Shown here: one piece after another, positions 28,314-63,563 of the stretch
Position numbering within the stretch: the first letter of the stretch is position 1
How the letters are laid out: each line of letters begins with the position of its first letter
NCBI GenBank assembly: GCA_037447655.1
Contig: JBBHKE010003573.1
Span: forward strand, 138,412-202,411
Source of the DNA: Zygnema cylindricum
Lineage: Eukaryota; Streptophyta; Zygnematophyceae; Zygnematales; Zygnemataceae
Reading direction: 5' to 3'
Length of the DNA stretch: 64,000 nucleotides
Made by a program: the position numbers and the translations under genes
Notes under the pieces: model-generated
What the model saw: the letters and a program-made list of their open reading frames with translations, nothing else
What the model was told of the DNA's origin: nothing
The model's database searches: none

Positions 28314-28325
28314 ACTAAAAAAATT

Positions 28326-38643: not shown

Positions 38644-41600
38644 ACTCCCCTTAATTCCAAGTCACTTTTTAATTTTAATCCACAGTTTTCTCTGCAATAA
38701 ATCAACTTAGGGGAAGGCACTGGTTTTGTCATCATGTCTGCAATCATTTCTCTATCAGTTTTATGAACCAGTTTAATAATTTTATTTTCAACCTTTTCTG
38801 TGACAAAGCTTAGTCTTATATCCATATGCTTACCTTTAGAGTGATGTTTCGGATTAGCTGCAATAGAGATAGCAGCTTGATTATCACAAAACATTTTGAG
38901 TTCCAGACTTCATGAACCCAAGTTCTTCAAGAAGAGACTTAACCCACATTAATTCTTTGGTGGCAGCATAGGAAGCCATGTATTCAGCCTCCATAGTATA
39001 CTGAGCAACTACTCTTTGTTGCTTGCTACTCCAACAACATGCACCGGATCCAATTTGCAACACATATCCAGTCGTACACCGCCTTAAAGGCACATCTCTA
39101 TAACTGGCATCACTCCAGGTGGTGATGTCAGTGTGCTCCCCTCCCAAATGCAACCATAATTCCCTTGTCCCTACCAGATACCTCATCACCCTTTTGGCAG
39201 CCTCCTAGTCTCTCTTTCTTGGTTCATTTAGACTTCTACTAAAGACACCTACAGCTGCAACTATATCCGGACGGGTACAGTTCATAAAATAAATTAGACT
39301 GCCTAGAATATGCCAATAAGGGATATTTTCCATAATTTTTCTTTCTATCTCATCCATCTCATCATTAATGATCAATATTCCTCTCTTTCACTCCTCTCAT
39401 ACACTTTCTTCAAATCCATAGGAGTAGTACATCCGTTTGCTTTTTCCATCTGGAATTTTTCTAGCATATTATTGATTGCTTCTTTTTGAGTGAGTCTTCC
39501 AATTGTATTCCCTTTATCTCTCTCAATCTGAATTCCCAAAATATACTTTGCTTCGCCGAGATCTTTCATATCAAAATTGCGTCCAAGATCCCGTTTTAGT
39601 TTGTTAATTTTATCTAGGGACTTGCTTAAGACCAACAAATCATCGACATAAATAGCAATAAATATCACTCTATTCTCATCCTCAAATAAATATATAGAGT
39701 GATCTGAACTAATTCTGATATACCCCAAACCGGTCAAGAATTCGTCTAGCTTTATATTCGATTGTCGCGGGGCTTGCTTAAGCCCATAGAGTGATTTTAT
39801 CAGTTTACAAACCTTGCTTTCTTCCCCACTTTCCATGAATCCTTCCGGTTGCCTCATGGAAATTTCTTCTTCCAACTCTCCGTGCAAAAAGGTCGTTTTA
39901 ATATCCATCTGGTGTATTTCGATATCCTCCGCTGCGGCTATACTTAAAAGGATTCTAATGGAAGGAAATCTGACTTCAGGTGCAAAGGTTTCTTCGTAGT
40001 CTATCCCCTATTTCTGAGTATAACCTTTTGTAACTAATCTAGCTTTGTACCTCTCAATGGTATTATCGGGGTTTAATTTAAGTTTAAAAACCCACTTACA
40101 TCCGATCGGTTTTCGGTCTGGTGGACAATCTACCAACTCCCATGTATAAGCTTCCATGATACACGCCATTTTTTTATTTATAGTTGTGATCCACCGGCTA
40201 CTTTTTCGGGTGTTTATGGCCTCTAAGTATATCTGAGGTTCATTCGGGTGAGACATCTTTGTGAGTTGGTTATTTACTTGTCTTTCTTGAAGTCGTTTAC
40301 TACTTCTTTTTCCCCCTTCAAAATCAGAAGCCGATATGGATGGCATCCTTAGGTTTCGTTTAGGAAGATTTTCAGCTCCCCTATCTTCCAATTCCGGTGT
40401 CTCATCAAAATCCTCATCGGTTTCCACTTCGTATTGTGGCGTTGCCTCGGATGTTGTCTTTTCCTCCTCTTTTGGTAGATCTGCAAATTTTCCTTTTTCT
40501 CCGTCTTCCTTCTCTTTATTTTCAAAGTCAAAGTCAGAAAGCTGATCCGCTTTAAATCTGATCTTGACTTCCTTATTATATTTGAATGGATCAATGGACT
40601 TTACTTCATTCATCACCACTATGTGTTTTACCAAAATTATATCTCTCTTTTTCAAGTCATACACCCGGTATCCTTTTGTGCTCTCATCATATCCTAAAAG
40701 ATATCCTGGTTTCCCTCTTCCCTCTAAATTCCATTAAGTCTTATCGGAATCTAAACTATAAACTTGACTTCCGAACACTCTCAAACTAGACAAATTGGGA
40801 TTTCTTCCTGTCCACCTCTCATACGAAGTTTCCTTTTTATTTGCTGAAGTTAGGACTCTATTTTTGATGAAATTAGCATAGTTCATAGACTCGGCCCAAA
40901 ACTGCAGCCCTATGCTCTTGTCACTTAACATACTTATAGACATATCTCCTGAAGTTTAATTCACTCTTTCTGCTACTCCATTTAGTTCCGGATTATAGGG
41001 AACAATTTTCTCATGATGAATTCTTTCTTCTTTACGATATTCTTCAAATTCCCTTGAGGTGTATTCTTTCCCATTATCACTTCTTATCTCTTTTATTGAG
41101 GTTTCATGTAGCTTTTCACTCCATACTTTACACTCTTTGAAACATCTTAATACCTCCGACTTATGTCTGAGAAAGTATACCTTCGTGTATCTAGACCAAT
41201 TATTTGTGATAGTTGACATCCATCTCTTCCCCGCATGTGAAGCATACCTAACAGGTCCCCAAACATCAGTGTGAACTAGATGTAATACTTTCTCTCTCCT
41301 AAATGTGGTTGCCTTTGGAAATGGAAGTCTATGAATCTTCCTTTCGACACATCCACTACAATCATCAAAGGTCTCATCATCTTCAAAAGTAATACCCTCC
41401 ACTATTCATTTTTTCTTCATTTTCTTTAATCTATCTAGATGCACATGCCCCAAACTTTTATGCCAAAGCATCATCTCACTTGCACACGAGTAGAGAACAC
41501 TTTTTTCATTGTAAAGAACAATTCTGAACATTCCTTGACTGCCCTTCTCAGCTATGAAATAAACCTCATTATCAAAGCTTGCTGTGAAGATTCCTTTCCT

Positions 41601-43088
41601 AGTTCCTGTTTCAAACTTCTTTTCATCTACGACAGCTGTTTAGACTAGGTTCTTGCTAAGCTGTGGAATGTAAATAACGTCTGAGAGTGTTATAATTGAG
41701 GCCTTTCCATTAACTAAAACCTTCAAGTCAACTGTTCCAACAAGACTTGTGGTTTCTACTCTACCATCTTCGTACTCTATCTCAACTGTTGGGATCTTTC
41801 TGAGTTTATTGAACTACCGCTTATCTTTGCACATATGCATTGAAGCCCCTGAGTCTATGATCCACCCATCCTCGGGTGGATCCCTCTTACCTCCGAAAGC
41901 ACACTTTTGTCTCCGTGGAATGTCGACATGCTTTTCAGTGTTTTTCGGATTAGGAAGAAGCTCCTCAAGCTCCCTTTCTTGTTCATTTTTTTCTTTCACT
42001 TCCTCATCATGAACTTGAGTCAGGAAAGCATTTTTCTTTCCTCCATCCCTTGAGGTTTCTTAACCAACTTTCAGTCGTAGATCTACAAGTTTGACACAAT
42101 CTGCCATATAGTGTCTCGGTTTCTTGCAAAAGTGACATAATCCTCCTCAAGAAGTTCCTCTCCCCTGTCTATCAAATCTGCCACCTCCTTGTCCTCTTCC
42201 ACCAAAGTTTTGATAGGGGTCTTTACCTCTCTCCTCATCACGCTTCCGCCAATCAGCTCGTGAAGACAATGCTTGAAAACTGGGACTCCCTCTCCTAAGC
42301 TCTATGGTACTTTCTTTCACTAAAATCATTCCCACTGTGTCATCCCAATTCAAATTGCTATCTCCTATGTCTTGCAATCAGTTGATGATATTTTCATACT
42401 CTTTAGGTAGTTTCATCATTAATGTGTTCACTTTTTGTCTCTCATACTATGAATTATCTGCACGCTCTAACTCTCCAAATAATGCTCCTAAATCATTGCA
42501 ATAATTATTCATACTTCCTCTTTTATAAGTATAAGCTGCAATCTTATTTTTCCGCCAACTGTTGTTGCTGCAATGATCCTCTCTTGTATTTGTTAACTAG
42601 TGATATCCAAATCTGAGATGAAGATTTGACATGCATAAGGAGAATGACAATGCCCTTTGCTACACTTTTAAGAATTACGAGCTTAGCAACCTTGTCTTTG
42701 TAGTTCCACTTTCATACTCTGATCTTTCGTTCTGAACCCTTGTCCTTATTGCTGGTGGTGTTGTTGCTGGTATCGCCTTTGGCAATGGTGTCACTTGAGT
42801 TGCAACTCCTCCATTTTCTCCTTCCATGACAATCTCCTCTCCTTCCTCATCTTCATCCTCGGTGATGGTGGCAGGTGTTCTACCAACTGTAGAGGCGGAG
42901 ATGCTAGAAAATCGTGTCCCTCCAAACCCAGGTGGAGGTGGGCATCGAATTTGTCAAGACACTATGCCCCATAGATGCTTCTCAAATAGTTCTCCCTCCA
43001 TCATCATTTCCGAATACAAAAAGTCTGATCCATCAAATATGGGCACCCTAGAGGGTGGGCCTATAACGTGATATTCTGTGGTCTCCAT
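38625..43088 (-). pseudogene. Copia-A gag-pol polyprotein, broken
   Basis: Readable in pieces from an ATG at 43088, inside the LTR, to a stop at 38625, 18 bases into the 3' LTR. Pieces in order: gag start (PPSRVPIFDGSDF, near 43055); CCHC knuckle CHFCKKPRHYMADC (about 42100-42145); protease WIIDSGASMHM (about 41850); integrase with HTDVWGP, IRSDNGKEYTS and NGVAERVN (41402-40956); RT with [15 protein letters not shown] and an intact YVDD box (39908-39372, box near 39645); RNase H with ATKELMWVKSLLEELG (39189-38884) and CDNQAAISIA, then KHMDIRLSFVTEKV (38894-38625). Stops and frame changes separate the pieces, so no complete polyprotein can be made. Encoded enzymes would package, copy and integrate the element. 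Confidence 0.88.
43055..43068 (-). promoter_or_regulatory. Copia-A primer-binding site, mutated
   Basis: Directly 3' of the 5' LTR (minus strand) the sequence is CGTTATAGGCCCACC. The copy at 48304-48317 reads GGTTATGGGCCCACC, complementary to the anticodon-loop region of plant initiator tRNA-Met (GGGCCCAUAACC), so reverse transcription would start from an internal or half tRNA, as in Drosophila copia. Confidence 0.75.
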
Positions 43089-43950
43089 TGACCCACAGAA
43101 TGAGCAACCTATGTAAAGCCTCTAGGATAATATTTGCCCCTTCCACTTTCCCACTGAATAGGTGCCATCAGGCTTACAAATATTCTGACCACCCTCACCT
43201 TATGAGGACTAGACTCCCTTGAGTCAAACGCAAAAAAAATCACTGAATTTGCTCCCTTGGGCTGTAAGTTATGGCTGGTCAAAGATGAATTTTATAGTTA
43301 CAAGCTCTCTTAGAGAGAGGTACCTAAATATCACTAAGTTTTATTTCTGCCTACTCAGGACTACCTACTACTAAACCCTACTCCAATAGGAACACAACTT
43401 AGTACAAGAAGGTACAATAGGAGACGTACTTATTGTACTGCCATTTTACGACATGGTCTACAAGCTGACACTTGTCAAATCAGGAGCCATGGTTCCTCCT
43501 CCCATCTTTTCCGGTATCAAATAATGTGGCGCCACGTGGCACCGCGTGACGCTATCTCCAAATGACGCCAAAAGCTCAGTTCGCGTGGCGGCTACAATGC
43601 CCGCTGTCCGATCAAAACATATTTTACACGGTTTAGATTAGCGTACATGCAAGAATTGCTCCTTTTGGTTAGTCTGCTGTTAATTAGCTGTTGCGTTAAT
43701 GTTTATATAACTTTAAAACCAGTGTATCGCTTCGCTAACGCCTGAATGGTTAAGGCGTATGTCTATTTAGTATTCCACAGTTCCAGTTTCAAATCTGGAC
43801 TTAGGCAACATGTCAGTAAAATATCCTCTACTTCAAAATTTGCCACTTTCTAAATATGGCGGCAGCCATGGCGTGCCTTTGATCCCCACTCTCTTTCTTT
43901 AAAGTAAAACTAAAATAGAGAAGTGAACTATTAATTACCTGTTTTCAACA
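43069..43950 (-). mobile_element. Copia-A 5' LTR
   Basis: 882 bp, ends TGTTGAAAAC and ATATCA on the minus strand. Carries a tRNA-like segment (about 43735-43810) and, near its 3' edge, the gag ATG at 43088. Confidence 0.88.
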
Positions 43951-47465: not shown

Positions 47466-47639
47466 TTGAGATCCTAATTACAATGCATCATATATCAAAC
47501 TACATTACCGTAATTCGTACATTATATATTAGTGGATCTATGTATCCCGTAATCCATTACAGTTAAATGATTTATCGTACGTATACATATTTAAATATAC
47601 ATCAAACTATATACTACGTAACATTAATCCTAGAGTTAA
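47466..47639. other. AT-rich flank of a truncated Copia-A copy
   Basis: No feature recognised. The junction with Copia-A gag sequence is near 47640-47653. Confidence 0.4.
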
Positions 47640-48317
47640 CAGCTAATGCTATCAGGTAGTTCCATCATTAATGTGTTCACTATTTGTCTCTCATACCATG
47701 AGTTACCTGCACTCTCTAGCTCTCCAAATAATGCTCCTAAATCATTGCAATAATTATTCATACTTCCTCCTTTATAAGTATAAGCTGCAATCTTATTTTC
47801 CGCCAGTTGTTGTTGCTGCAATGATCCACTCTTATATTTGTTAACTAGTGATACCCAAATCTGAGATGAAGATTTGACATGCATAAGGGGAATGGCAATG
47901 CCCTTTGCTACACTTGTAAGAATTAAGAGCTTAGCAACCTTGTCTTTGTAGTTCCACTTTTCAAACTCTGATCTTTCGGTCTGAACCCTTGTCGCCGCTG
48001 CTGGTGGTGTTGATGCCGGTATCGCCTTCGGCAATGGTGTCACTTGAGTTCCAACTCCTCCCTTTTCTCCTTCCATGACAATCTCCTCTCCTTCCTCATC
48101 TTCATCCTCGGTGATGGTGGCAGTTGTTCTACCAGCTATAGAGGCGGAGGTGCGAGAAAAACGTGTCCCTCCAAACCCAGGTGGAGGTGGACATCGAATT
48201 TGTCCAGACACTATGCCCCATAGATGCTTCTCAAATAGTTCTCTATCCATCAGCATTTCCAATTACAAAAAGTCAGATCCATCAAATATGGTCACCCTAG
48301 AGGGTGGGCCCATAACC
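47636..48317 (-). pseudogene. Copia-A gag fragment (second copy)
   Basis: A 208-codon frame (48262-47636) aligned with Copia-A gag. It has the retrotransposon gag core pattern, KSSSQIWVSLVNKYKSGSLQ then AAYTYKGGSMNNYCNDLGAL and ELPDSI, and is truncated after that point so knuckle, protease and all of pol are missing. The start is damaged: the LTR copy of the ATG is frameshifted by one base and a TAA follows FDGSDFL. The protein would form the particle shell. Confidence 0.85.
48304..48317 (-). promoter_or_regulatory. Copia-A primer-binding site, intact
   Basis: On the minus strand the LTR ends AGAATTTCA and is followed at once by GGTTATGGGCCCACC, matching 15 bases of the complement of plant initiator tRNA-Met around its anticodon. 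Confidence 0.8.
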
Positions 48318-48990
48318 TGAAATTCTATGGTCTCATTGACCCATAGAATGAGTAGCCTATGTTAAGCCTCTAAGATAATATTTGCCCCTTCCACTTTCCC
48401 ACTGAATAAGTGCCGCCCTCGCACACAAATATTCTGACCACCCTCACCCCTGTGAGGACCAGACTCCCTTGAGTCAAACGCAAAAAGAATCACTGAATTT
48501 GCTCCCCTGAGCAGTAAGTTATCGCTGGTCAAAGATGACCTTTATAGTTACAAGCTCTCTTAGAGAGAGGTACCTAAATCTCACTAAGTCTTGGTCTACC
48601 TACTCACGACTACCTACTACTAAACCCTAGTCCAATAGGAACACTATATAGTACAAGAAGGTACCATATGAGATGTACTTATTGTACGGCCATTGTACGA
48701 CATTGTCTACAACGTGACACCTGTGAAAATCGGGAACCATGGTTCCTCCTCCCATCTCCTCCGGTATCAAATAATATGGCGCCACGTGGCACCGCGTGAC
48801 GCTATCTCCAAATAACGCCAAAAGCTCACTTCGCGTGGCGGCTACAGTGCCGGCCGTCCGATCAAAAACCATTTTACATGGTTCAGATTCGCTTACATGC
48901 ATGAATTGCTCATTTTCGTTAGTATGTTGTTAATTAGCTATTGCGTTAATGTTTATATATCTTTGAAACCCCTCACGTGTATCGTTTCGT

Positions 48991-49066
48991 AGCGCCTTAA
49001 TGGTTATGGCGCTCGGCTATAGAGAATCTAGAGGTCGCAGGTTCAAATCTAGACCTAGGCATCATT
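48991..49066 (+). other. tRNA-like segment within Copia-A LTR
   Basis: Read on the plus strand, AGCGCCTTAATGGTTATGGC, then GGTCGCAGGTTCAAATCTAG, and ACCTAGGCA resemble a degraded tRNA. GGTTCAAATCT is close to a Pol III B box. Equivalent, more degraded segments sit in the other LTR copies (about 37735-37810, 38430-38505 and 43735-43810); in 43.8 kb the T-arm-like stem TCCAG/CTGGA is kept. It is antisense to the Copia transcript. A functional tRNA is unlikely. Confidence 0.4.
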
Positions 49067-49142
49067 TTAGTAAAATATCCAATACTTCAAAATCTGCCAC
49101 TTTCTAAATATGGCGGCATCCATGGCGCGCCTTTGATCCTCA

Positions 49143-50088
49143 AGTTACGTCCTCATGTAATCGGTACTTTTGCAAAGTATTTTGGACTGTAGTATAGATT
49201 CTCCGTATTACTTTGAAGAGTATCCTTATGTGCAAATATGAAATCGGAACTTTGAAATGTGACGGTTGTAGACGCAAGGTACTACTGATGAAGACTGAAG
49301 ACGACTTCGAAACTTCCGACGATTAGTGACGCCAACAAAAACAACGACAGTTGTAGACGTCTACATTTTTTTGAAATCGTGGATGTTTAGGGTTTGGTGA
49401 TATTGTGACATCACGCTCACTTGTGACAACGTCGACGTCACTGATTCAATAACTTTCCGCCATGGTTTTTCGATTTCGCTTTTTCTCCTTTTCTCACTCG
49501 ATTTGCGATTTAATAAAAAAGTAAAAAAAATCAAAAAAAATATTTTTTAAAGATCTTTCAATTTATACCAATATTGTCGTGTCTCATTCTAAAAAGTGTG
49601 AGATACAAGCGATAGTTTTAGAGGGAGAGAGGAGAGGCGCGACGGCGAAAAATTATGCAAATGACCAATGAATTAAAGTGGAAGTTCGAGACTCGTGCAA
49701 ATTTTTTTCAATACATAGCGCGTGACGGGTACGGAGAAAAATAGCGAGGACTCTCCCTCGTCCAAATTTTTTACAAATCGTGTGGCGCGTGCTTGGTTTG
49801 TTTTTCATTCGCTGTTTGGGCGGAACTTCACTAAAATCACCTCTTTCGTGTGATTTTGGATGAAGTTTTTTTTTGGGCTGGATTTTTTTGCCCGAGGGTC
49901 GAAAAGGGGAAAACGCCAAAATGCATTCATATGACGACAAACACGCCGTACATCGAAAGTGTGAATTGACGAATAATTTATTTTGGTAAGCATAATTTTC
50001 TCGTACGGTAAAAGTTTTTTTCCAAGTTCCCTGAATTTTAGGGCAAAAAGACAGAGAAAAGTATGTACTTTAATACATGGGGACGTAC
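49143..50088. mobile_element. 946-bp non-autonomous inverted-repeat element
   Basis: Inserted in the Copia-A LTR with a 5-bp duplication CCTCA at 49138-49142 and 50089-50093. Ends AGTTACGTCCTCATGTA and, read inverted, GTACGTCCCCATGTA share a roughly 14-bp imperfect inverted repeat. Uninterrupted LTR copies show the empty site. No transposase frame. Superfamily not assigned. Confidence 0.75.
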
Positions 50089-50188
50089 CCTCACTCTCTT
50101 TCTTTAAAGCAAATCTAAAATAGAGAAATGAACTATTAATTACCTCTTTTCAACAGATGCCTATAAGGTCAAAGAAAGGTTAGCAATA

Positions 50189-50647
50189 TTGTCCACTATG
50201 CTTCTCGAATCGAATAGCGAGGCTAAATCCTCAGATCTAACTAAATCTGCACATGCATTAAAAGCGCTTCAAAACCATCGTAGTACCCTTTCTCTTCAAG
50301 CAATTACTCTTGAAGAGCGTTCCAGTCTTACTCCACACATCAGTTTTCTGGATAATAGGTTAGGTGTGTTCACAGTTAATGGGGTAGCCCCAGCTTTACC
50401 TCTCATGGACACAGGGGCAAAACCCATTATCCTCGGATCAGATTTTGCCAAGAAAATAGGTCTTACTGCAGATACACTACAACCCACTACCATTATTTTC
50501 TTCACTTCCGCAGGAACCACAGAACTAGTCCTAGGTATGACAAAAGAACCACTATGTTTTCAATTTCAGTGTCAATCAGAATCCGTATTCGCAGAAATAC
50601 ACGCTCACGCCTTGGTCACCAAGTGTAGAGACGTCATTTTCCGAGTA
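50189..50647 (+). pseudogene. Ty3-type gag tail and aspartic protease
   Basis: A continuous frame (frame 2) gives about 150 residues. The protease flap and active site follow the retropepsin pattern: APALPLMDTGAKPIILGSDF, with catalytic Asp-Thr-Gly at 50408-50416, then the hydrophobic strand FAKKIGL. It would cleave the polyprotein. There is no zinc knuckle upstream, since sequence before 50156 is lost. The frame runs into a 23-base poly-G run and the following domain is in another frame, so run-length change has broken the polyprotein here. Confidence 0.82.
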
Positions 50648-50670
50648 GGGGGGGGGGGGGGGGGGGGGGG
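50648..50670 (+). repeat. Poly-G run of 23
   Basis: Homopolymer between protease (frame 2) and methyltransferase (frame 1). May be a true slippage tract or an assembly artefact; it decides the reading frame of everything downstream. Confidence 0.9.
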
Positions 50671-50676
50671 TTTGAT

Positions 50677-52010
50677 ATGCACGATAAAACATTTTCGTAC
50701 AAACCAAACAATTTTCCAAACCGCAAAGTTTGCTTACCTCTTATCTCAGCTCGGCAACCCATTCCTACTACAGCTCATTCGGCGTTTGTCTTGCCAGCCT
50801 ATGCTGCAGTTGGCATAGGTGCTGATATTTTTGAATCTTTAACTGCGGAAGAAATCTTACCAGTCCCCCCGAGAATGCCGGAATTATTTGGCACCCCAGG
50901 TTTTATTATTGACACTTCAGATTTTGACAGATTGTGTAAGTTTAATGTACCGATTCCTTTATTCGGTATTCCGGATCCACCCGCGATTTCATGAGATCCT
51001 TTCGGAATTCTGCCGATTAAATGGAAGCCAGTCAGTTTACAACCTAACCCGAACGGTCTTGTTCTCTTAGACCTGTTTGCAGGAATAGGTACCACACTTC
51101 TCTCATGCCTTAGGAACGGTATTCTAATCAAGCAGTATTATTACGTAGATATTGACCCTTTGGCTAGACGCGCTCAATTGCACCACTGTCAAATCTTACT
51201 TGAACAATACCCTCACCTCCTACCGCAGTCTGCGTTTTATAGTATACATTCAACTTTACCACAAGATATCCGTCTGATAGGTAATCACCACCTGGCGGAG
51301 TTAGAACCAATCGATCTCCTTTTTGCGGGATAGGAATGTCAAGGTATGTCTCAAGCTGGGAAAGGTTTAGGTATGGCAGATCCGCGCACTAAACTGTTCT
51401 TCGAGGTAGTGCGTCTTATCCATTTCTTTCAGTCGGTGAACCATCCCTTTAGATATGTTTTGGAAAACGTCGCGGCTCATAATGACCCTCGACCTACGGT
51501 TCTTGCAGTTTATAAACGTATCGAATCATTAATTGGACCCCCACTAATAATCGATGCCGCACGTCATGGGTCGCTGGCCCACCGGGTTCGTTCTAAGTGG
51601 ACTAATCTGGTGGACATAGGCCGGCTCCGAGAAGCTAACCTCGCTATCCGACCACCTAAACTTTTCATTCAAGAAGCACTTCTTCCTTTTCATAAGGTCC
51701 AGACATGTGTCCAGACAGACTGTCCTCCTGCATTTTGTCTTAACACCATTGAACAGCCATTATGTGCACTTCCTACACTAGTCGCATATCCAGACTCCCA
51801 TGGATATTCACATAACGGACCTAGTTTCCTTCAAAACACTCATACAAGCAGTCTAGAAAAACCTACTGTTGCGGAGAGAGAACACCTGCTCCATTTCATC
51901 CCAGACACTACGGTTGCCCCAGGACTCACTGAGCGGCAGCGCTACACTTTACTTGGTCGGGTTATGGACCCTCAATCCCTGTCATTTGTCTTGGGCATAG
52001 GGTTTGCAGC
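50677..52010 (+). pseudogene. C5-cytosine DNA methyltransferase domain of the Ty3-type element
   Basis: Frame 1 is open from the poly-G run to 52755 except for TGA at 50992 and TAG at 51331. The methyltransferase occupies about 51040-52000. Motif I (AdoMet binding) is LLDLFAGIGTTL (51064-51099). An acidic AdoMet-binding strand is YVDIDPLARR (51142 on). Motif IV is ECQGMSQAGKGLG with catalytic Cys at 51337-51339, where the usual Pro before it is Glu. Motif VI is YVLENVA (51457 on). Motif VIII is HRVRSKW (51580-51600). Motif X-like LLGRVMD lies near 51949-51969. The enzyme would add methyl groups to cytosine in DNA, plausibly on the element's own cDNA. TGA fits CGA to TGA decay; TAG fits loss of a Trp. 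Similar fusions have been reported in charophyte retrotransposons; it is not a host DNMT, since RT follows in register. Confidence 0.92.
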
Positions 52011-52384
52011 CGGTCGATACGCACATAACCATCCGTCTCAATCAGCTGGGGGGAGGAATACAGCATTCAAACACGCTGCTTCTAAATCCACACCTTCTCT
52101 CCGGGGTACAGCTTTTCAGCTCTCTCTTTTTCCTCCTTCCGCCAAGTCTGACACAAATCATACTATTAACGATTTCTTGGAACCTAGTCACATGAGTTGG
52201 TCCATCCCAGCATACACAGCGGCTAGATCTTTGGTACCAGTACGCGCAGTCCCACATTGGACAGCTACATTTCTATCTACAAGTTGGCATCATGCACTAA
52301 ATTGTTCGCGTCAGCTTCCACTTGAGTATGAGTTGGGACAGTCTTTAGTCGCGAATGAGCAGCTAGCGCTCGCACAGGCCATGG
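52011..52384 (+). other. Linker between methyltransferase and reverse transcriptase
   Basis: Same frame as the methyltransferase, no stop. The sequence (for example FLEPSHMSWSIPAYTAARSL) has no recognised domain and may include the end of the methyltransferase fold or an RT-proximal tether. Confidence 0.6.
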
Positions 52385-53833
52385 AAGCCAATACCATCAA
52401 CGCACCTGAAAAACCAACGTGGAAATTTGGGTCAGGACAATCAAAACCAGAACACGAACTGTTACATGGAATTATAAACCAACACAAAGACGCGTTCGCT
52501 TACTCCATGAAAGATTTGGGTCGACACACCACTTGCAGAATGGCCATTGACTTGGAAGATGACAGACCCATATTCAAACCCAAGCATCGTCTATCAGAAA
52601 CCGAATGGGAAGCAGTGGACAAACGATGTGCAGAGTTAGAAGAGGCAAGACTGTTTTATAGGTCCGACTCCACCTTTGAGGCGCCTATCGTCATGCCTCG
52701 TAAAAAAAAACGTAGAGGGGAATTTCACAGTACGTCGCATGTGCGAGGACTATAGAGAACTGAATTCCCGTACAATCTAGGACCGACATCCAATGCCTTT
52801 GGCGGTGGACATTTTTGATCACGTCGGCGAGGCTAAATATTTCAGCATTCTGGATCTACGATAAGGGTTTAACCAAATTGAAACAGAGGAGAACGACTGA
52901 CATAAGACTGTATTTTGGGGAAGTGATGGGCGTTGGGAATCGTCAGTTATGCCCTTTGGCTTGAAAAATGCCCCGGCCGTATTCCAAAAGGTTATGGACT
53001 CGATCTTAAGGGGGTGTAAGTTTGCCCGTTGTTACATTGACAATTTAATCATTGCTTTAGCCTCTATAGAGGAACACCGAGCACATATAGAGTGGGTATT
53101 AAAAGAGTTGAAAAAAGTGGGTCTCAAATGTCATCCTGCCATATGCATCTTCGGGGCTGAAGGGGTACCATATCTCGGGCATTTTATCTCATCCGAGGGA
53201 ATTACTCCGCTAGAAGCCAAGGTTGAAGCGATCAATAAACTACCGTCCCCAACAGATTTAACAAACATGCGTGCATTGTTAGGTTAGGCTAATAATTATA
53301 GAAGGTTTTTTTCGGGGTTTAGCACGCTCGCATCCCCACTTAATGAACTCTTAAAAAAATCAACGTCGTTTACTTGGGGACCCCCGCAGATTGAGGCATT
53401 CCAGGGAATAAAAAAGGCACTGTCCACCGCTCCCATTCTTCGTCCACCAAATCATAAGTTACCATTTTACTTACAGACACACTTTGGTAAGCCCGATATC
53501 GCCGCCATCCTAACTCAGTGTGAGCTTACATGTGAGGAATATGTGGTGGCTTATGCTAGTCGAAGCAACAATCAAGCAGAGTCGAACTACAATAGTTATA
53601 AGGGGGAGTGCCTACCCGTAGTTTGGGGAATTGTGCATTTCTGCCATTACCTTTATGGCAAGCCTTTTACTCTTCTTATTGACCATCAACCATTGCATTG
53701 GCTCATGACCAATGACAAACTATCCGGCAAGTTAGCCCGCTGGGCTCTTATTTTGCACGAATACGATATGTATATCATCTATCGACTCGGGCTCCTCAGT
53801 TTCAATGCCGATGATCTTTCTCAAAACCCCTAA
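52385..53833 (+). pseudogene. Ty3-type reverse transcriptase and RNase H
   Basis: RT starts in frame 1 (HELLHGIINQHKDAFAYSM, then KHRLSETEWEAVDKRCAELE). It shifts to frame 2 in an A-run near 52700 and continues CEDYRELNSRTI, FSILDLR, VMPFGLKNAPAVFQKVMD, then the active site YIDN at 53033-53044 instead of YIDD, and YLGHFISSEGI. RNase H follows: LPFYLQTHFG (the expected QTD is QTH), VAYASRS, YKGECLPVVWGIVHFCHYLY, DHQPLHWLM and FNADDLSQNP. In-frame stops lie near 52780, 52862, 52898 and at 53285. Loss of the second catalytic Asp alone should abolish polymerisation. The codon changes (GAT to AAT, CGA to TGA) look like decay after insertion. Confidence 0.9.
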
Positions 53834-54531
53834 CCAAATTCTGCCGATAATGGAGTGCGCCAGGATTTTGATGACGAACCAGTTGCATCGTTGTCTGCTG
53901 GAGCACTCCTGGTCTAAAGTTTTTTGGGTCCCACGGTTCACAAAACTGAACACGATCCATGGCGGGACAGCGCTCTGGTCTTATTTTTATCAACCCAGTC
54001 CTTTCGAACAGGCACCATAACAAGAGAGGAGGAGCGTGTTCGTAAAAGAGCTCAAAATTACTTATGGATGAGAGGTTCCCTTATCCGTCTCGTCGCAGAT
54101 GGAAGTCATCGGCAGGTTACTTGGCCGACATAACACCTATCACTTATCGATCAGATTCATATTGATCTGGGACATTATGGTACTAAACGGACTTTGAGTT
54201 TGGTATAGGCACGTTATTGGTGGTCGGGCATGCAGGCGGACGTTGCGGCCGTGTTACAAGGATGTAGCACATGTGACCGGTTGCGGACCTCCTTCTCTAA
54301 CCGTCAGACTACACTTCAACCTTTGCCTATCCGAGGTCTCTTCTACAGGTGGTCACGTGAGCTGGCAGGTCCTTTTCTTGTCTTGCGAATGGGCAAGCAA
54401 TACCTCATGATCAAGAATTTAAGCAAATTGGTGGAAGTGGTGGCCCTCCCGCACAAAACTGCCAAACTCACCACCGTCGCTTTCAAGGAGCATGTGCTCC
54501 TCCGATATGGAGCTCCTGCAGAAGTCGTTAC
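53834..54531 (+). pseudogene. Ty3-type integrase, N-terminal part (before Copia-B insertion)
   Basis: Contains the His/Cys zinc finger (HIDLGHYGTKRTL, then CSTCDR) and the start of the DDE core (WSRELAGPF, where the first catalytic Asp reads Glu), then FKEHVLLRYGAPAEVVT ending at the Copia-B target duplication. Stops interrupt it near 54131 and 54206. The enzyme would insert cDNA into chromatin. The core resumes at 60385. Confidence 0.88.
54527..54531. other. Copia-B target site duplication, left
   Basis: GTTAC, identical to 60385-60389 on the other side of the element. Confidence 0.92.
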
Positions 54532-55352
54532 TGTTGTTCTACAACCACTGGTGCAGGTGGAGGAGCAGCAGTAGTAGTAGAAGTAGACATGATACACTCT
54601 CAGAAGCTATCAAGAATCTTACAAAACAGCTGTTCTTAAGTGCTCACCAATTCTTATAGAAGCATCCAAACCTCACAAAACTCTATCAAAAAATAGAGTA
54701 GCATAAACACTGATAACTCCCAAACTTATAGCACAATTGACCCGACAACACTCAAGATATAATACTCAGAAGTTTCCAAAAAACTCTTTGCAGTTTTACT
54801 ACTTGGAAGTTTGGATACATAATATGCTATGAGTCCTAAGTCTTATACTTGTGTTGAACTGGCAACACCATTGTACTTGAGAGGTACATCAAACCACCAA
54901 GCTACCACTAATCTATCAAGCTACCATTGAGCTATCACTAAGCTACCACTGAGCTATCACTAAGCTAACTAGAATCGTATCTATCGCAGTTGCTCTATCC
55001 TGTACAGAATCACATTAAGAATATTAGACGTTGCGTTGTCCGTACGGACTATATCAAATATAATTATGGTTGCCTTGTCCTGTCTGTGTTGCAGCTTCGC
55101 TGCTGCGCTGCTTTGTTGCTGCGCTGCTATGCTGTATAGCAGCTGCTCTGCTGTATAGCAGCTGCTCTGCTATATAGCAGCTGCTCTGCTGTATAGCAAC
55201 TGCTCTGCTGTATAGCAGCTGCGCTGCTGTATAGCAGCTGCGCTGCTCTGTTGTATAGCAGCTGCGCTGCTTTGTCTGTATAGCAGCTGCGCTGCTTTGT
55301 CTGTAAAGCAGCTGCGCTGCTCTGAGACCGAAAGCTTTCCAAAAAGACAACA
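54532..55352 (-). mobile_element. Copia-B 3' LTR
   Basis: 821 bp; minus-strand ends TGTTGTCTTTTTGG and GTAGAACAACA. Includes CTG/CAG-rich repeats (about 55090-55325, unit like AGCAGCTGCTCTGCTGTATA) and keeps the gag ATG at 54590. The polypurine tract CTTTAGGGGAG (55353-55363) precedes it. Confidence 0.92.
55090..55325. repeat. CAG/CTG-rich repeat within Copia-B LTR
   Basis: Imperfect 15-21 bp units of the type GCAGCTGCTCTGCTGTATA. The 5' LTR has the shorter counterpart at about 60140-60355. Copy-number difference explains most of the 40-bp LTR length difference. Minus frames through it encode Gln/Ser/Ala/Cys periodic peptides. Confidence 0.8.
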
Positions 55353-55512
55353 CTCCCCTAAAGCTTTAGACTCAGTATCACGGCGCAGCTGCGGTGATAA
55401 ACTAGCGCAGCATCGCAGCATAGCAATATAGCAATTAGCTAGTCAACCAGTCCCACTACCTCACAATGGTGGAATTATCGTAGAGTGTCAGTATAGCAGT
55501 GTAGCAATTCAA

Positions 55513-56981
55513 CTATTCACTTAATCCCACTGCGTCCCTATAATACTTAAGCTTAAGAGCAGGAAGGGCTTTTGTGAGTATATCAGCAATCATTTTTGCA
55601 TCTGGCAAATAACATAATTTAATCACTCTAGAGAACACCTTTTCTCTTACAAAGTGTAATCGTACATCCATGTGCTTGCTTTTGAAGTGATGACTCGGGT
55701 TAGAAGTAATGGCAATGGCAGCCTGGTTATCACACCGGATCACCTGTGGACCAACTTGCATGTATCCTAGTTCTTGTAACATGGATTTTACCTAGAAGAG
55801 TTCTTTGAGGGCCGAGCTTGCTGCCATATATTCTGACTCCATTGTCGACTGTGCTGTAACCTTTTGAAGTTTGCTGCTCCAACAGCAAGTACCGTTCCCA
55901 ATTTGTAGAACGAATCCCGTGGTGGATTTCCGGCATGGCATGTCGCCATAGCTTGCATCACTCCATGTTTGCAGCTTGACTTCTCCTCCGCCTAGAGTGA
56001 GTTTGAGATCTTTAGTTCCTGCCAAATATCTTAAGACTCTCTTTGCTGCATCAAGATCAGATTTTCTCGGATTTTCTAGACTCCTGCTCAGTACCCCGAC
56101 TGCTGCAGCAATGTCAGGACGGGTATAGTTCATGAAATATATTAAGCTTCCCACTATCTGTCTATAAGGTATTATTGTCATAGGATCATTCTCCCCCGAC
56201 TCTAAATACTCGCTAACAATGACACTTGGTTCTGTCTCTTCTCCCTCTATCTTCTGCCGAAACTCCATTGGAGTTAAACATCCTTTTGCCCCCCGCATTC
56301 CGTACTCATCTAACATGTTTCCAATAGCCTCTTTTTGAGTCAATTTTATAATTTTCTTATTTCTGTCCCTCTCTACCTGGATACCCAAAATATATTTTGC
56401 CTCACCGAGGTCTTTCATCTCGAACCGTGAGTTTAGAGCAGTTTTGATTTTGTTAATTTCAACCATTGATTTGCTAATTAATAGCAAATCCTCTACATAT
56501 ACTGCTATATACACTATCCCATTTTCACCCTTTAGAACGTAGACAGAGTGATCAGAACTTATCCTTTGAAATCCTAGACTAGTCAAGAATTCATCAAGCT
56601 TTATATTCCACTGTCGGGGGCCTGTTTTAGGCCGTACAAAGATTTTAGCAACTTGCATACTAAGTGCTCTTTTCCTGGTTCCACATACTTTTCAGGCTGC
56701 TGCATGTAAATGGTCTCTTCTAGTTCTCCATGCAAAAAGGCCATTTTTACATCCATCTGATGAATTTCCATATCTTCTATAGCAGCTAGGGACAGCAAAA
56801 TCCTAACTGTTGGAAATCTTACAACCGGAGAAAATGTTTCTTCAAAATTGATTCCTTCCTTTTTATTGTACCCTTTCGCCACAAGTCTGGCCTTATAGCG
56901 TTCAATGGTGTTATCGGGATTTAACTTCACCTTGAATACCCATATGCTGCCGATCGCTTTTCGGTCTGGAGGAAGGCCCAC
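55513..56981 (-). pseudogene. Copia-B reverse transcriptase and RNase H
   Basis: RT begins with [20 protein letters not shown] and [11 protein letters not shown], then [15 protein letters not shown] and LYGLKQAP. A one-base frameshift near 56620 separates this from [15 protein letters not shown] onward. The active box reads YVED (about 56490) instead of YVDD. RNase H has SDASYGDMPCRKSTTGFVLQ, TAQSTMESEYMAAS, then CDNQAAIAITSN and KHMDVRLHFVREKV. A TAG at 55792 replaces the expected Trp in the LFWVKSMLQELG region. The stop is at 55513, before the polypurine tract. The Asp to Glu change and nonsense codon suggest an inactive copy. Confidence 0.9.
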
Positions 56982-57418
56982 GAGCTCTCATGTTTGAGCC
57001 TCCATGATCGACTTCATTTCGTCGTTTGCCGCCTCAATCCAGTGATTCCGCTCTGGTGATGAGAAGGCCTCTTGGATGGTCAAGGGCTCCCCTGAGACTG
57101 CCGCGTAGGCAAAGTGAGAGTTTGCTTGTAGGCGGCTTCTTGATCTTCTTCCCTCCGGAAATTCTGAGGCTGAGATCATCGGATGCCGCGCATTGTGCTG
57201 ATTGCACTGATTGCGCTGGGGGCAATCCGTGTGTATTGACTGCTCTTGGTCCGTGTGGACCCGAAGTTGGTGAGGAACTTGGAGAGAGTCTGACTCCGGA
57301 GTCATTACCAGAGTTTGTGGAATCTGCGAGACAATTTCCTGCATGCAATCTAAGATGACATACTCCTGTACTTTTTGTTGCTTTTGTTGCTCTGTCATTT
57401 GAAATAAATCTATGGAGT
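56982..57418 (-). pseudogene. Copia-B integrase/RT linker region
   Basis: Frame 57398-56988 gives a Gln-rich, low-complexity stretch, then FSSPERNHWIEAANDEMKSI and EAQT before a TGA where the family has Trp (EAQTWELV). A one-base frameshift near 57420-57430 separates it from the upstream gag-protease-integrase frame. Confidence 0.8.
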
Positions 57419-59662
57419 CTAGTTCATCCTTATGATGTTTCTAGCTACAACCATTTTCTGCCTTTCAAACACAAAGACTCTATAACCTTTTGAGTGATCA
57501 TCATATCCTAACAGAATACCCGGTAATCCCTTCGGTTCCATTTTCCATCTATCTATAGAAGTATCCAATATAAAGCATTGACTACCAAAGACTTTGAAAT
57601 GGCTAACATCTGGTTTGCTACCTGTCCAGATTTCGTAAAGAGTTGATTCTATCGATCTTGATCCTATCCCATTTTTAATATAAACTGCACAATTTAGAGC
57701 CTCAGCCCAGAATTTCGGATCCACATTTTTATCTGCGAGCATAGACCTAGAGCTTTTCGTGAGAGTTCTATTTAGTCGTTCCGACACCCCATTTTGTTCC
57801 GGTGAATACGGAACAGTCAATAGATGACTAATGCCTTCCTCGAGTAAAAAGGTTTCAAATTCTTTCGATGTATATTCACCAACATTGTCCGATCTGAGAT
57901 GTAAAATAGATGAATTATGAAGTTTTTCAGCCCATGCTTTATAGTGTTTGAAGTGACCAAACACTTCACTCTTCTCCTTCATGAAGTAAATTTCTGTAAA
58001 CTTGGAGAAATCATCTGTGAAGGTGACCATATATTTCATCCCTCCGGTAGATGGAACCTTCGCCGGACCAAAGACATCCGAATAAATTTGTTGTAAAAGT
58101 TTCGTTGACCGATGCTCAGACTCCTTAGGAAATGGCAATCTGTGGATTTTGCCTAAAGCGCAACCATCGCAAGTTTTGACCGGCCCATCTGTGATTGATA
58201 CACCCTCTATTTTTCCAGCAATGACCATTTTCCTCAAACTATCATAATTAACATGGCCTAATCTTTTATGCCACAACTCATCTGAGTGCAAAACACCGGA
58301 GTACAAAACATCATTCTCCTTTGTATTAGCCATATCCATGCGATACATCTTGCTACTATCTCTAGTACCTGTAACCGCAACCTTGCCATTTTTGCTAACA
58401 ACTTGCCGACCATTTTTCAAATTAACCTCAAAGCCTTTGCTCTCTTCCAACGACGTAGAAAACAGATTTTTCTTAAAGTCAGACACAAATAAGACATTGT
58501 GAAGAGTTCTTTCAATTGCTTTTCCTTCTACATCAACTAGTAATGACACATCACCCACAGCACTCATTCCACAAGCATAATAAATATTTTTCTCCGGCGT
58601 TGCTTTCAGATTTTTGAAGATGGCCTTGTTCCAGCACATGTGGGCTGACGCTCCTGTATCCATTATCCATCCGGGGTCCTTCGCGCCCTCCATTGTAGAC
58701 GCCATAGCGAAGAGATCTGTATCGTCCTTCGTAGAAACCGTCAAAGTCTCGTCTTGGAGAGACGAAGAAGCCAATAATAGTGCATTTCCACGAGGTGTAG
58801 TCCCCGTGAAGCCTTTGTAAAACTGGCTTTGTTCCCATCCCGGCCGGTATAAACCTGTATCGTTAGCTTTTTTAAGCTTAGGACAAAATTTGTATCCATG
58901 ACCTCTCTCACTACAATAAAAGCATGCATTGTTGGATTGTCTATCTCCACCTTGATTAAAATGTCTGAACTTATTATACTGATTTCTTTGCTGATTAAAC
59001 TGTCCTTTTCTCTCAAAGTCTGAATTAAAAGCCTCTACTTGCTCAACATTGAGAATATTAGATGTAGCTTCCTCCTCTAGTAAAATATTGATGGCTAACT
59101 GTAAAGTCCAGCTATCTTTATCTTTTTGTTTGAGCATGTCAGATGCTCCTTTCATACTACGAGGGAGACCCCTCATGAGCAAAGCTGCCTGTTGAAACGG
59201 AGGAAACACCCCACCTGCACAAGCATGTGTATCTCCAAGGATGCGGAATTTATTAGAATATTCAGCCATTCTACCGCAAGTGTACTTATAGTCCCAAATT
59301 TTTCCAGCCAATAGAAGCTCTTCCTAGACATTAGCCTTTTCATAATCATTTTTAAGATATTTCCAGATGTCAATTGCTTTTTTCATTTTTATCCAAGACA
59401 TAGCTAAGTCCTCAGATATACAAAATTTCATAATAGAACGAGCCTGCGTATTTTTCTTAGACCATGACGGATCACATTCATCCAGCGAACCATCCAATAT
59501 ATCTAAAAGATTGACATTCTCAAAATGTGTCTCCACCATATCCGCCCTGTAAACATACTTATCCCTGGAAAAGATAGGAATTCTTGATGACAGGCCCATA
59601 ACCTGTTGTTCTACAACCACCGGTGCAGGTGGAGGAGCAGCAGTAGTAGTAGAAGTAGACAA
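57419..59662 (-). pseudogene. Copia-B gag, protease and integrase
   Basis: One frame of 748 codons interrupted once, by a TAG at 59324-59326. Gag starts in the LTR (codon at 59662 is TTG here; the 3' LTR has ATG), reads STSTTTAAPPPAP and crosses the primer site as QVMGL. Then come the gag core, CCHC knuckle CFYCSERGHGYKFC (about 58890-58930), protease WIMDTGASAHM (about 58655), GAG-pre-integrase zinc site (LWHKRLGHVNYDSLRKM and CDGCALGKIHRLPFP), and a complete integrase triad in YSDVFGPAKV, LRSDNVGEYTSKEF and NGVSERLNRTL. Residues KVFGSQCFI and LLGYDDHSKGYRVF follow, typical of Copia. It lost its start codon and is cut by one nonsense codon, so expression is unlikely. Confidence 0.92.
59590..59603 (-). 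promoter_or_regulatory. Copia-B primer-binding site
   Basis: Directly after the LTR (minus strand, ...GAACAACA) comes GGTTATGGGCCTGTC; the first 11 bases are complementary to the anticodon loop of plant initiator tRNA-Met. The site is inside the gag frame. Confidence 0.78.
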
Positions 59663-60384
59663 GATACACTCTCAAAAGCTATCAAGAATCCTACAAAACA
59701 GATGTTCTTAAGTGCTCACCAATTCTTATACAAGCATCCAAACCTCACAAAACTCTATCAGAATATAGAGTAGCATAAACACTGATAACTCCCAAAGTTA
59801 TAGCACAATTGACCCGACAACACTCAAGATATAATACTCAGAAGTTTCCCAAAAACTGTTTGCAGTTTTACTACTTGGAAGTCTGGATACATAATATGCT
59901 ATGAGTCCTAAGTCTTATACTTGTGTTGAACTGGCAACACCATTGTACTTGAGAGGTACATCAAACCACCAAGCTACCACTAATCTATCAAGCTACCATT
60001 GAGCTATCACTAAGCTAACTAAAAATGTATCTATCGCAATTGCTCTATCCTGTACAGAATCACATTAAGAATATTAGAAGTTGTGTTGTCCGTACGGACT
60101 ATATCAAATATAATTATGGTTGCCTTGTCCTGTTTGTGTTGCAGCTTCGCTGCTGCGCTGCTCTGTTGCTCCGCTGCTCTGCTGTATAGCAGTGCTCTGC
60201 TGCTGCGCTGCTCTGCTGTATAGCAGCTGCTCTGTTGTATAGCAGCTGCGCTGCTCTGTTGTATAGCAGTTGCACTGCTCTGTTGTATAGCAGTTGCACT
60301 GCTCTGTCTGTATAGCAGCTGCGCTACTTTGTCTGTAAAGCAGCTGAGCTGCTCTGAGACTGAAAGCTTTTCAAAAAGACAACA
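59604..60384 (-). mobile_element. Copia-B 5' LTR
   Basis: 781 bp with the same TGTTG and CAACA ends as the 3' LTR. Gag start region lies 59 bases from its 3' edge, but the initiator is TTG in this copy. Confidence 0.92.
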
Positions 60385-60389
60385 GTTAC
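60385..60389. other. Copia-B target site duplication, right
   Basis: GTTAC, matching 54527-54531. Confidence 0.92.
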
Positions 60390-60960
60390 GACCAAGGGAC
60401 TGAGTTTCGTTGCGAATTTCAAGAAATGTTCGACGAGGCGTTGATCGATCACCGTCGAACAAGTCGAGATCACCCGAAGGTAGACAGTTTAGTCGAGAGA
60501 GCCGTGCAAACATTTAAATGGGCTCTACGCAAACACTGTTTCGAGAAACATATTACTGTGTGGGATGAATCATTGGTTATATTGTCATCGGTTATCGCAT
60601 GTCTGTACAGACCAGCCTAGCAAATTTTAGCCCCTTCTATGTGTTATTTGGTCGATAACCACTGCTCGGTAGAAATATACAGAAAGCTGCTAGTTTTCCT
60701 TTGGAGCTTATGTCTGATTCTCTTTTTTTGGAAAAACTAACCAACCGGGCTTTGCTTTTTGCTAGAGAAATTCCAATGGCCTTTGAAAACTTGCAGATTG
60801 CTCAACATCGCGACTCCTTGCGGTTTGCAACAACTCGCAGTGGCTGTTAGAGGACACAATAAAAACCATATCGGGTGGGGGACTATGTATATTTGCGTCG
60901 GCAAACATTTGAAACCCTCGATACGGATGTCTCATCTCACATATTGAGGATCACCAAAAT
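60385..60960 (+). pseudogene. Ty3-type integrase, C-terminal part (after Copia-B insertion)
   Basis: Continues the DDE core: DQGTEFRCEFQEMFDEAL (second Asp kept) and HPKVDSLVERAVQTFKWALR (Glu kept), with one frame change near 60620. Then FENLQIAQHRDSLRFATTRS and a GPY/F-type strand VGDYVYLRRQ and SHILRITKID. Several stops. This C-terminal part normally contacts DNA and leads here into a PHD finger. Confidence 0.88.
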
Positions 60961-61109
60961 CGACCCCAATGTATTATTTAGCCTACAAGGAGCCGACACG
61001 CGCACTTTGTGAGAACATTCGAAAAATTGTGCTCCCTGTTACCTACCTGATCTCTCCCAGTGATCTCTCCCACAGTATGGATCCGTGGCGGATGCCGATT
61101 ATCGAGGCT

Positions 61110-61290
61110 ACCGTGTGTCAGTTGTGTCGGTTGTCTGATGGAGAAACGACGATGCTTCTCCGCGACTATTGCAATCTTCGATTCAACATGGAGTGTTAGG
61201 TCCCACCTTTGCACGCTATTCCGGCTGGACAGTGGTTTTGCCACTGATGTCGCGACCTACCGGCTGTCCTCCGCAGCTCCCCAGCAGGCT
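61110..61290 (+). pseudogene. PHD finger at the C-terminus of the Ty3-type polyprotein
   Basis: In the frame following the integrase tail, the C4HC3 pattern reads: Cys 61116 and 61125 (CQLC), LLRDYC with ligand 3 changed to Arg (61161) and ligand 4 Cys (61170), FNMEC with the His ligand changed to Asn (61185) and Cys (61194), then VPPLHAIPAGQWFC with Cys 61239 and the last Cys 61248. The PPL and GxWxC spacing is diagnostic of PHD fingers, which bind histone H3 tails. TAG at 61197 and TGA at 61245 interrupt it. By analogy with chromodomain Ty3 elements it could steer integration to marked chromatin. The ligand losses fit decay. Confidence 0.85.
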
Positions 61291-61316: not shown

Positions 61317-61505
61317 AATTCCATCCTTTTTTCCCTTTACCTACTAAACTTGGCGTTGTACTTTTATTTGTTTGTCTGTTTTCTTGAGCTAGTTCATTAA
61401 TATTTCTGTTGGTATATATCTCTTCTCTCTGGTGTTAGCATACATTTTTGGCAACGCTAATTGGGTATGATGCATGTCATTTAACGATTGTATGCTCATG
61501 CACGA
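61317..61505. repeat. Direct repeat, copy 1
   Basis: About 189 bp (AATTCCATCC ... GCTCATGCACGACA) highly similar to 63370-63563. Its position just after the Ty3-type coding region suggests 3' terminal sequence of that element; it ends in CA, as an LTR would, but does not begin TG. Confidence 0.75.
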
Positions 61506-61912
61506 CAACTGTCATGCCGCAGGACGTCGACGAGTATAATTGTTGATTTTCACACTAATTTGGGTATAAGGGAATATTACAGGTCAATGACGGAATGTTA
61601 GGATGAAGGTACGGACAGAACGGAATTCGTACCCTGTTATCGGCATAAAATCAGATTGGGGTACGGCATCACATTTCGCGAATTCGAACGGCTCCACATT
61701 TAACATATTATGGACTCAAACGGTTACATACCTGACACATGTCCAAGTCCTTAACCCTCGGAGGTTCATGCAATATTTTTGTAGCGTAGGGAGGTTTTTC
61801 CATCTTCGAGGTGTAGATGTAAGGTGCCCAGAGGTGGCCACGTAGCGGCCACCTCTAGAAACTGGCAGCGTTTGTACATAGAAAGTTGCTTTCTCACAGA
61901 AATAGAAATTTG
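61506..61912. other. No gene recognised
   Basis: Anonymous sequence between the repeat and the hAT-like element. Confidence 0.4.
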
Positions 61913-63369: not shown

Positions 63370-63563
63370 AATTCCATACTTTTTTCATTTTACCTACTAA
63401 ACTTGGCGTTGTACTTTTATTTTTTTGTCTGTTTTCTTAAGCTGGTTCATTAATATTTCTGTTGGTATATATTCTCTGCTCTCTGGTGTTAGCATACATT
63501 TTTGGCAACGCTGATTGGGTATGATGCATGTCATTTAACGATTGTATGCTCATGCACGACATC
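63370..63563. repeat. Direct repeat, copy 2
   Basis: Same sequence as 61317-61505 with scattered changes, ending GCTCATGCACGACA. The 1.9 kb between the copies includes the hAT-like insertion. Confidence 0.75.

Follow-up and report, generated by a model that had tools for sequence, protein, structure and literature searches.

A dead, nested Ty3/Gypsy retrotransposon copy encoding a DNMT3-like cytosine methyltransferase in its polyprotein

Known methyltransferase-bearing retrotransposons and the element in the window

Methylase-carrying Ty3/Gypsy and DIRS elements have been reported from several lineages, green algae and charophytes among them (PMC6338049), and a 2018 paper is credited with describing some DNMT3 members in LTR Copia and DIRS elements of streptophytes and dinoflagellates (PMC12344493). 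For example, KnitGypsy-Dnmt3 from Klebsormidium nitens combines a Gypsy domain set and DIRS-like split repeats with an unrearranged Dnmt3-class DNA methyltransferase (DNMT) in the Pol ORF, and its DNMT domains are under purifying selection (de Mendoza et al. 2018; PMC5890265). Similarly, SymbioDIRS-Dnmt3 and SymbioLINE-Dnmt from Symbiodinium are retrotransposon-borne cytosine methyltransferases, of the Dnmt3 class in the DIRS elements (PMC5890265). In the sections of that paper considered here, the Klebsormidium Gypsy DNMT domain gave no methylation in yeast, a result judged inconclusive, and the sole active domains among the retrotransposon enzymes tested were two from SymbioDIRS-Dnmt3, which methylated CG de novo (PMC5890265). 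An earlier note on this DNA had referred to published DNMT-bearing retrotransposons with evidence for de novo CG methylation; the literature agrees on the existence of such elements, but reports the activity only for SymbioDIRS and not for the Klebsormidium Gypsy domain (PMC5890265). Methylation of cDNA upon reverse transcription, escape from recognition as foreign and slowed transposition have all been proposed already (PMC5890265). The methyltransferase passages of PMC9033089 concern host enzymes, and among the literature matches listed, judged by title and the start of the abstract, there was no other primary description of Gypsy elements with a PHD finger or of retrotransposon DNMTs.

The window (the whole 64,000-nucleotide stretch of Zygnema cylindricum DNA analysed here) contains a dead, nested copy of a Ty3/Gypsy retrotransposon that encodes a DNMT3-like cytosine methyltransferase in its polyprotein, the original order of which was protease, methyltransferase, reverse transcriptase (RT), RNase H, integrase and PHD finger (Table 1). 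DNMT-bearing Gypsy elements are already known from algae and the window adds a further, broken one; the pairing of DNMT and PHD finger, the two layouts found among relatives and the Glu before the catalytic Cys may be new. Compared by description rather than by sequence, KnitGypsy-Dnmt3 and the window element share a Dnmt3-class domain (assigned in the window by profile and fold ranking) inside a Gypsy Pol ORF. The sections of PMC5890265 on KnitGypsy-Dnmt3 covered here, figure aside, do not state the position of the DNMT relative to the RT or a motif IV Glu, and the term PHD has no occurrence in the main text of that paper, Figure 4c lying outside the comparison. The Symbiodinium elements rely on a tyrosine recombinase or on LINE machinery, in contrast to the rve-type integrase parts, DTG protease and RT-RNase H-integrase series of the window element.

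Protein searches yielded P0001-P0017, from public contigs and EukProt models, and family counts are based on the 13 proteins with a DNMT core (P0003, P0004 and P0007-P0017). P0001 and P0002, in which the domain lacks its N-terminal part, were excluded from motif counts, and the bacterial-type C5 methylases P0005 and P0006 (E 3.1e-4 and 8.3e-4) were excluded from family counts. The complete relative, P0007, is a 2358 aa protein in one open frame on an 18,357-base ENA contig (protease 663-711, DNMT about 935-1275, RT 1443-1596, RNase H 1685-1789, H2C2 1925-1977, integrase core 1996-2090 and PHD 2300-2344). It is co-linear with the window element from protease to PHD finger, is open throughout, and has in front a gag-like part that is absent from the window; its N-terminal part shows, by eye, a zinc knuckle (CYRCGDPAHLANAC) unmatched by Pfam.

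The DTG protease and the protease-RT-RNase H-integrase order are those of Ty3/Gypsy elements, and the protease stretch at 50312-50632 is 40% identical to P0007 643-749. The methyltransferase element lacks gag and its 5′ end, having been truncated at about 50155 (where the repeat ends) by the LTR end of a separate, partial Copia. The linker piece 50671-50991 had no Pfam match. The earlier note had overlooked the 3′ half of the element, namely the integrase C-terminus and the PHD finger, which lie beyond a Copia nested in the integrase gene; this continuation (integrase from 60390 to about 61060, then PHD) was revealed by aligning P0003 and P0004 to the window. The PHD fingers of P0003, P0004 and P0007 match PF00628 at 3.8e-11, 2.9e-10 and 5.8e-11, respectively. 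The nested Copia has TG..CA ends, LTRs that are 90.5% identical and a target duplication, GTTAC, at 54527-54531 and 60385-60389.

Table 1 Coordinates of the methyltransferase element, the Copia nested in it and the repeats that follow it
Feature	Position in window	Strand	Evidence or remark
Protease remnant, DTG in LMDTGAKPI	50157..50668	+	Asp_protease_2 6.3e-5 (24.0 bits; cut-off 24.3, just missed)
Linker, protease to methyltransferase	50671..51051	+	In-frame TGA 50992-50994; poly-G run 50648-50670 just before
C5-cytosine methyltransferase domain, DNMT3-like	about 51052..52011	+	Motifs, profile and P0007 alignment; in-frame TAG 51331-51333
Pre-RT region (WKFG...FKPKHRLS) and RT core	52375..53365	+	RVT_1 3.4e-15; P0002 and P0007 alignments; frame change near 52700
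RNase H	53288..53830	+	RT_RNaseH 6.6e-28
Integrase: H2C2 zinc domain and core, first part	54053..54531	+	Integrase_H2C2 4.3e-6; P0003/P0007 alignments; broken by Copia
Copia nested in integrase gene, foreign to the methyltransferase element	54532..60384	-	LTRs about 54532-55352 and 59604-60384; Copia-type domains
Integrase: core second part and C-terminal region, several stops	60385..61060	+	P0007 2062-2123 68%, 2131-2297 52%
PHD finger, broken	61113..61253	+	Alignment to PHD fingers of P0003, P0004 and P0007
Direct repeat, first copy, just past coding end	61317..61507	+	95% identical to second copy
Direct repeat, second copy	63370..63561	+	95% identical to first copy

The window copy is dead and does nothing today, since its P0007-aligned stretches contain 16 stops, to which a TGA at 50992 and changes of frame are added. 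Relative to P0007, in-frame stops number 0 in the protease, 1 from the DNMT to the start of the RT, 8 from the RT to the integrase, 0 and 5 in the integrase stretches and 2 in the PHD finger (16 different codons overall), and the TGA falls outside the aligned part. The aligned stretches also occupy different frames, and the copy cannot yield its polyprotein by ordinary translation. Single positions have changed as well: the YIDD position of the RT reads YIDN, which alone may not be fatal because P0002 likewise has YIDN, the P0007 integrase stretch WSCDLAGP reads WSRELAGP, and the PHD finger has, besides its two stops, one Cys ligand replaced by Arg and a His replaced by Asn.

Identity and catalytic site of the methyltransferase domain

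The C5-methyltransferase motifs that the earlier note had claimed between a DTG protease and an RT are all found in frame 1 of 50671-52755 (+), in the order LLDLFAGIG, YVDIDP, ECQGMSQAGKGLG, YVLENVA, HRVRSKW and LLGRVMD. Motifs I (LLDLFAGIG), VI (ENVA, with the ENV signature) and VIII (HRVRSKWTN, with RxR) thus occur in the order of C5 enzymes, with motif IV reading (stop)-ECQGMS and LLGRVMD lying at the C-terminal end. However, the frame is not open, two in-frame stops (TGA 50992-50994 and TAG 51331-51333) having been overlooked in the note, and ECQGMSQAGKGLG thus begins right after a stop. Likewise, the span of 50677..52010 first given to the domain needs trimming: its downstream part coincides with the domain, but 50677-51051 is linker.

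Profile searches support the assignment. When scanned alone, the piece after the TAG matches PF00145 (DNA_methylase) at 30.8 bits and E 2.7e-7, above the cut-off of 22 bits, which is the result of the HMM search that had been proposed as a check, and the piece before the TAG gave just N6_N4_Mtase (0.12) and TRM5 (0.32), with no C5-methyltransferase match in Pfam. With stops written as X, TIGR00675 (dcm) matches the whole frame at E 7.7e-11, spanning the pieces on either side of the TAG, at a score of 42.2 bits that misses the model's own cut-off of 100.65. Thirteen proteins match the window domain at E 2.1e-33 to 4.7e-88, among them P0007, which shares 45% identity with it across 98% of the query (E 4.7e-88). 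Judged by these sequence matches, the methyltransferase domain is genuine, far beyond chance, and the profile matches together with the co-linearity of P0007 uphold the original claim of a cytosine methyltransferase within a Ty3-type polyprotein.

To assess the class of the enzyme, the PDB was searched with a nine-domain profile (window, P0007, P0008, P0003, P0009, P0010 and P0014-P0016) drawn from the fourteen DNMT-core sequences. DNMT3A ranked first (8.7e-17), followed by DNMT3C and DNMT3B, plant DRM (3.7e-9), HhaI (1.3e-7) and DNMT2 (about 1e-5); DNMT1 and CMT do not appear by name in any of the 59 rows, of which the final two, unrelated proteins at E about 2, were discounted as chance. The window piece after the TAG also found DNMT3A first when used alone (E 0.006), and every member of the profile matches TIGR00675 at E <1 (best 2.3e-12). 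In an AlphaFold model of P0003, the DNMT part resembled DNMT3A/3B/3C catalytic-domain chains (target TM-scores 0.59-0.66, among 50 matches listed) and the integrase part resembled retroviral and Ty3 integrases (among the matches listed), a comparison that is supportive only because the model has low confidence (mean pLDDT 52.9, pTM 0.33). The profile and fold rankings suggest that the domain is DNMT3-like, in the sense that DNMT3 is nearest among solved structures. The domain shares the linear, unpermuted motif order of animal DNMT3A and DNMT3B (that of DRM is permuted), and the blocks DA..S.AHR.R..W.NL and ER..G.....R..LLG align with theirs. In contrast, many family members have Glu-Cys where the animal enzymes have Pro-Cys, and the stretch between motifs II and IV is longer in the family. 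Pfam scans of the window pieces and of 15 of the 17 fetched proteins (all but P0013 and P0017) revealed no ADD or PWWP domain.

Motif IV of C5 methyltransferases usually reads Pro-Cys, a pair that is present in the bacterial-type matches P0005 and P0006. The window copy departs from this rule, with the Cys kept, Glu instead of Pro and a stop codon immediately before. Among the 13 relatives, the catalytic Cys is preceded by Glu in nine, including P0007 (AGWECQGHS), by Pro in three (P0003, P0010 and P0016) and by Ala in one (P0014). However, the DNMTs of P0004, P0009, P0011, P0012, P0013 and P0017 are 97-99% alike, so that the 13 proteins represent eight lineages and Glu is found in four of them (P0007, P0008, the P0009 group and P0015), Pro in three and Ala in one, plus the Glu of the window itself. 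The earlier note had offered family trait or decay as the source of the Glu; because Glu recurs in open relatives, the alignments identify it as a family trait, and decay is ruled out. Elsewhere in the catalytic site, the motif IV Cys and the motif VI Glu-Asn are kept in all 13 relatives and the motif VIII pattern HRxRxxWxN in 11, but Pro before the motif IV Cys is replaced in 10/13, the motif I Phe is Cys in 10/13 and ENV is strict in just 4/13. With several such departures, activity could be altered or lost.

Family layouts, origin and possible roles

Two layouts occur across the relatives, with the DNMT either before the RT or after it, towards the integrase. In P0001 and P0002 the DNMT end runs into the RT, as in the window and P0007, and in nine relatives (P0008, P0009 and P0011-P0017) the RT comes before the DNMT; P0003, P0004 and P0010 start at the DNMT and continue into the integrase, and P0013 stops before any integrase. 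According to the earlier note, its reading would be refuted if relatives did not carry the domain between protease and RT. Such relatives do exist, as 12 of the 13 have the DNMT after the RT or at the protein start, but none of the 13 lacks the DNMT; elements without it were not findable because the search aimed at the domain. Most of the 13 have both the integrase and a PHD finger, the latter (PF00628 or LLCDxC) being present in ten and absent from P0012, P0013 and P0017, and the relatives include open frames of about 1,750-2,470 codons with Pol parts.

Some members continue beyond the PHD finger. P0014 (about 1780-1993) and P0008 (about 2260-2472) have an extra C-terminal domain with DPF.G.G and T.PPF..LD patterns, a diverged version of which occurs in P0016 and P0010; P0007 ends soon after the PHD finger and is without it. 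This is possibly a second, amino-methyltransferase-like domain: in P0014 it has weak Pfam matches to UPF0020 (0.037) and D12 adenine methylase (0.044), in P0008 it has none, and the P0014 domain returned just two unrelated rows from the PDB (E 0.2 and 1.5). In a search for viral or bacterial relatives, the family profile gave 67 pattern matches in IMG/VR contigs and 30 in GTDB genome contigs, and P0007 alone gave one in IMG/VR, none of which was confirmed; these scans are weak negatives because they were based on two, six and one short patterns.

Trees without outgroup were built for the DNMT (11 rows), RT-RNase H (9) and integrase (9) from eight of the 13 relatives, the window and, where they reach, the partial P0001 and P0002. 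All three part the window, P0007 and, where present, P0001 and P0002 from the rest with support of 100 each (96 and 100 when the integrase pieces of the window are treated separately), and branching inside the second group is weakly supported. As the three trees share this deep split, the DNMT has been inherited along with the element, and the shared split, together with a motif II-IV stretch that is longer in both groups than in DNMT3A (36 profile positions versus 19 residues), favours one old capture of the DNMT and a later move within Pol. It is unlikely, by comparison, that related Gypsy elements captured a DNMT twice, once before the RT and once before the integrase. The two DNMT positions do match the two deep branches, and trees without outgroup do not directly address a common origin of both DNMT groups; against this, the RT and integrase show the same split as the DNMT, most members of both groups have PHLL-like and LPQD-like blocks in addition to the longer stretch, and DNMT identity between the groups (33-43%) overlaps that within the second group (39-53%, the 83% pair P0009-P0015 aside). 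A single capture may belong to a longer history, which we put forward as tentative: an old Ty3/Gypsy clade would have captured a DNMT3-type writer once, paired it with a PHD reader, moved it across RT-RNase H within Pol and evolved the Glu-Cys loop, with some members adding the amino-methyltransferase-like domain. If so, such elements would determine, through a writer as well as a reader, how their own copies are marked epigenetically.

Transposons are usually silenced by DNA methylation, and it is therefore puzzling that an element should retain a methyltransferase of its own. The best explanation, and a reasonably probable one, is that the window holds an element of a layout in which the Pol-borne enzyme of live relatives methylates the element's own cDNA and the PHD finger aids placement in chromatin. 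In live relatives, the methyltransferase would be synthesised within Pol, be packaged with it and act on the double-stranded cDNA during or after reverse transcription, while the PHD finger at the integrase end would help to place that cDNA in chromatin with a particular state of the histone H3 tail. A new copy would then be methylated on arrival, which may cut the cost to the host or avoid treatment as foreign. The PHD profile is closest to readers of the KMT2D, KMT2C, CHD4, KDM5, KAT6 and UHRF type (best 60 of 105 matches), although likeness to chromatin readers does not fix which mark is read. The CpG observed/expected ratio is 0.946 for the window and 0.802, 0.816 and 1.053 for the 5′ part, DNMT and 3′ part of the element; CpG is at most mildly depleted, which gives no indication that the window copy was heavily CpG-methylated over a long period.

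Alternatively, the DNMT may act after integration on the host chromatin of the insertion site or its surroundings, as part of a PHD-guided writer-reader pair that shapes the target or silences competitors. The joint presence of DNMT and PHD finger in 10/13 relatives, the position of the DNMT directly before integrase and PHD in the larger group, and the likeness of the PHD profile to chromatin readers among those same best 60 matches all suit this explanation. Against it, the window, P0007, P0001 and P0002 have the DNMT ahead of the RT, far from the PHD finger, and the protease normally cuts Pol proteins apart; we consider the explanation unlikely. Marginally less likely again, the domain may no longer be a DNA methyltransferase, but may methylate RNA (for example, primer tRNA or genomic RNA) or merely bind nucleic acid structurally in Pol. 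The replacements in motifs I and IV and the rarity of a strict ENV are consistent with such a change, as is the inactivity of the published Gypsy domain on yeast DNA (PMC5890265, where it was judged inconclusive); the invariant motif IV Cys and motif VI Glu-Asn, the motif VIII arginines of 11/13 relatives and a profile closer to DNMT3 than to DNMT2 argue against it. The chance nesting of a host DNMT pseudogene in an unrelated retrotransposon, which the abundant nested repeats of the window might suggest, is refuted by the co-linearity of P0007 with the window through the DNMT-RT junction and by the presence of the same domain and Pol parts in 13 relatives, including long open frames.

Methylation of the element's own cDNA, like the alternatives to it, is open to experiment. 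The family offers long open proteins, with all parts in P0007 and most of Pol in P0008, P0009 and P0014-P0016, and spans two layouts, members with and without the active-site Pro, and a linked histone reader, making activity, substrate and benefit testable.

Repeats and other features of the window

Past the coding end, the element is followed by one copy of the direct repeat, then by about 1.86 kb in which a foldback-like element is nested, and then by the other copy of the repeat (Table 1), a pattern other than that of flanking long terminal repeats. The pair could be half of a pattern such as the DIRS-like repeats of KnitGypsy-Dnmt3, and it is possible that it is part of a DIRS-like split repeat; no upstream partner was found in the window, where the 5′ end of the element is lost. 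Between the direct repeats, the stretch at about 61913-62808 has inverted ends (TAGTGTTGTGTA) and 76% matches at 28321-28787, and looks like a foldback or MITE-type insertion. Poly-G runs at 50648-50670, inside the element, and 61299-61316, at its end, are the sole runs of at least 12 G or C in the window.

No tRNA was found in the window (ARAGORN, bacterial code) and no Rfam family reached its gathering score there. On the minus strand, 18481-22200 is a 1240-codon open frame with Cys-rich, knuckle-like stretches by eye and no Pfam match at E 0.01 or better, and 46509-46940 matches NDC10_II weakly (E 0.0013), short of the model's cut-off. The nested Copia has CTG-rich tandem repeats and a CpG observed/expected ratio of 0.563, compared with 0.946 for the repeat-rich window as a whole. 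Two further Copia copies, at 37059-43950 and 47639-50155, have in common the LTR ends ...TTTTCAACA; the former carries an RT (RVT_2 7.4e-58 at 39375-40007), and the latter is reduced to gag (Retrotran_gag_2 4.5e-13) and an LTR.
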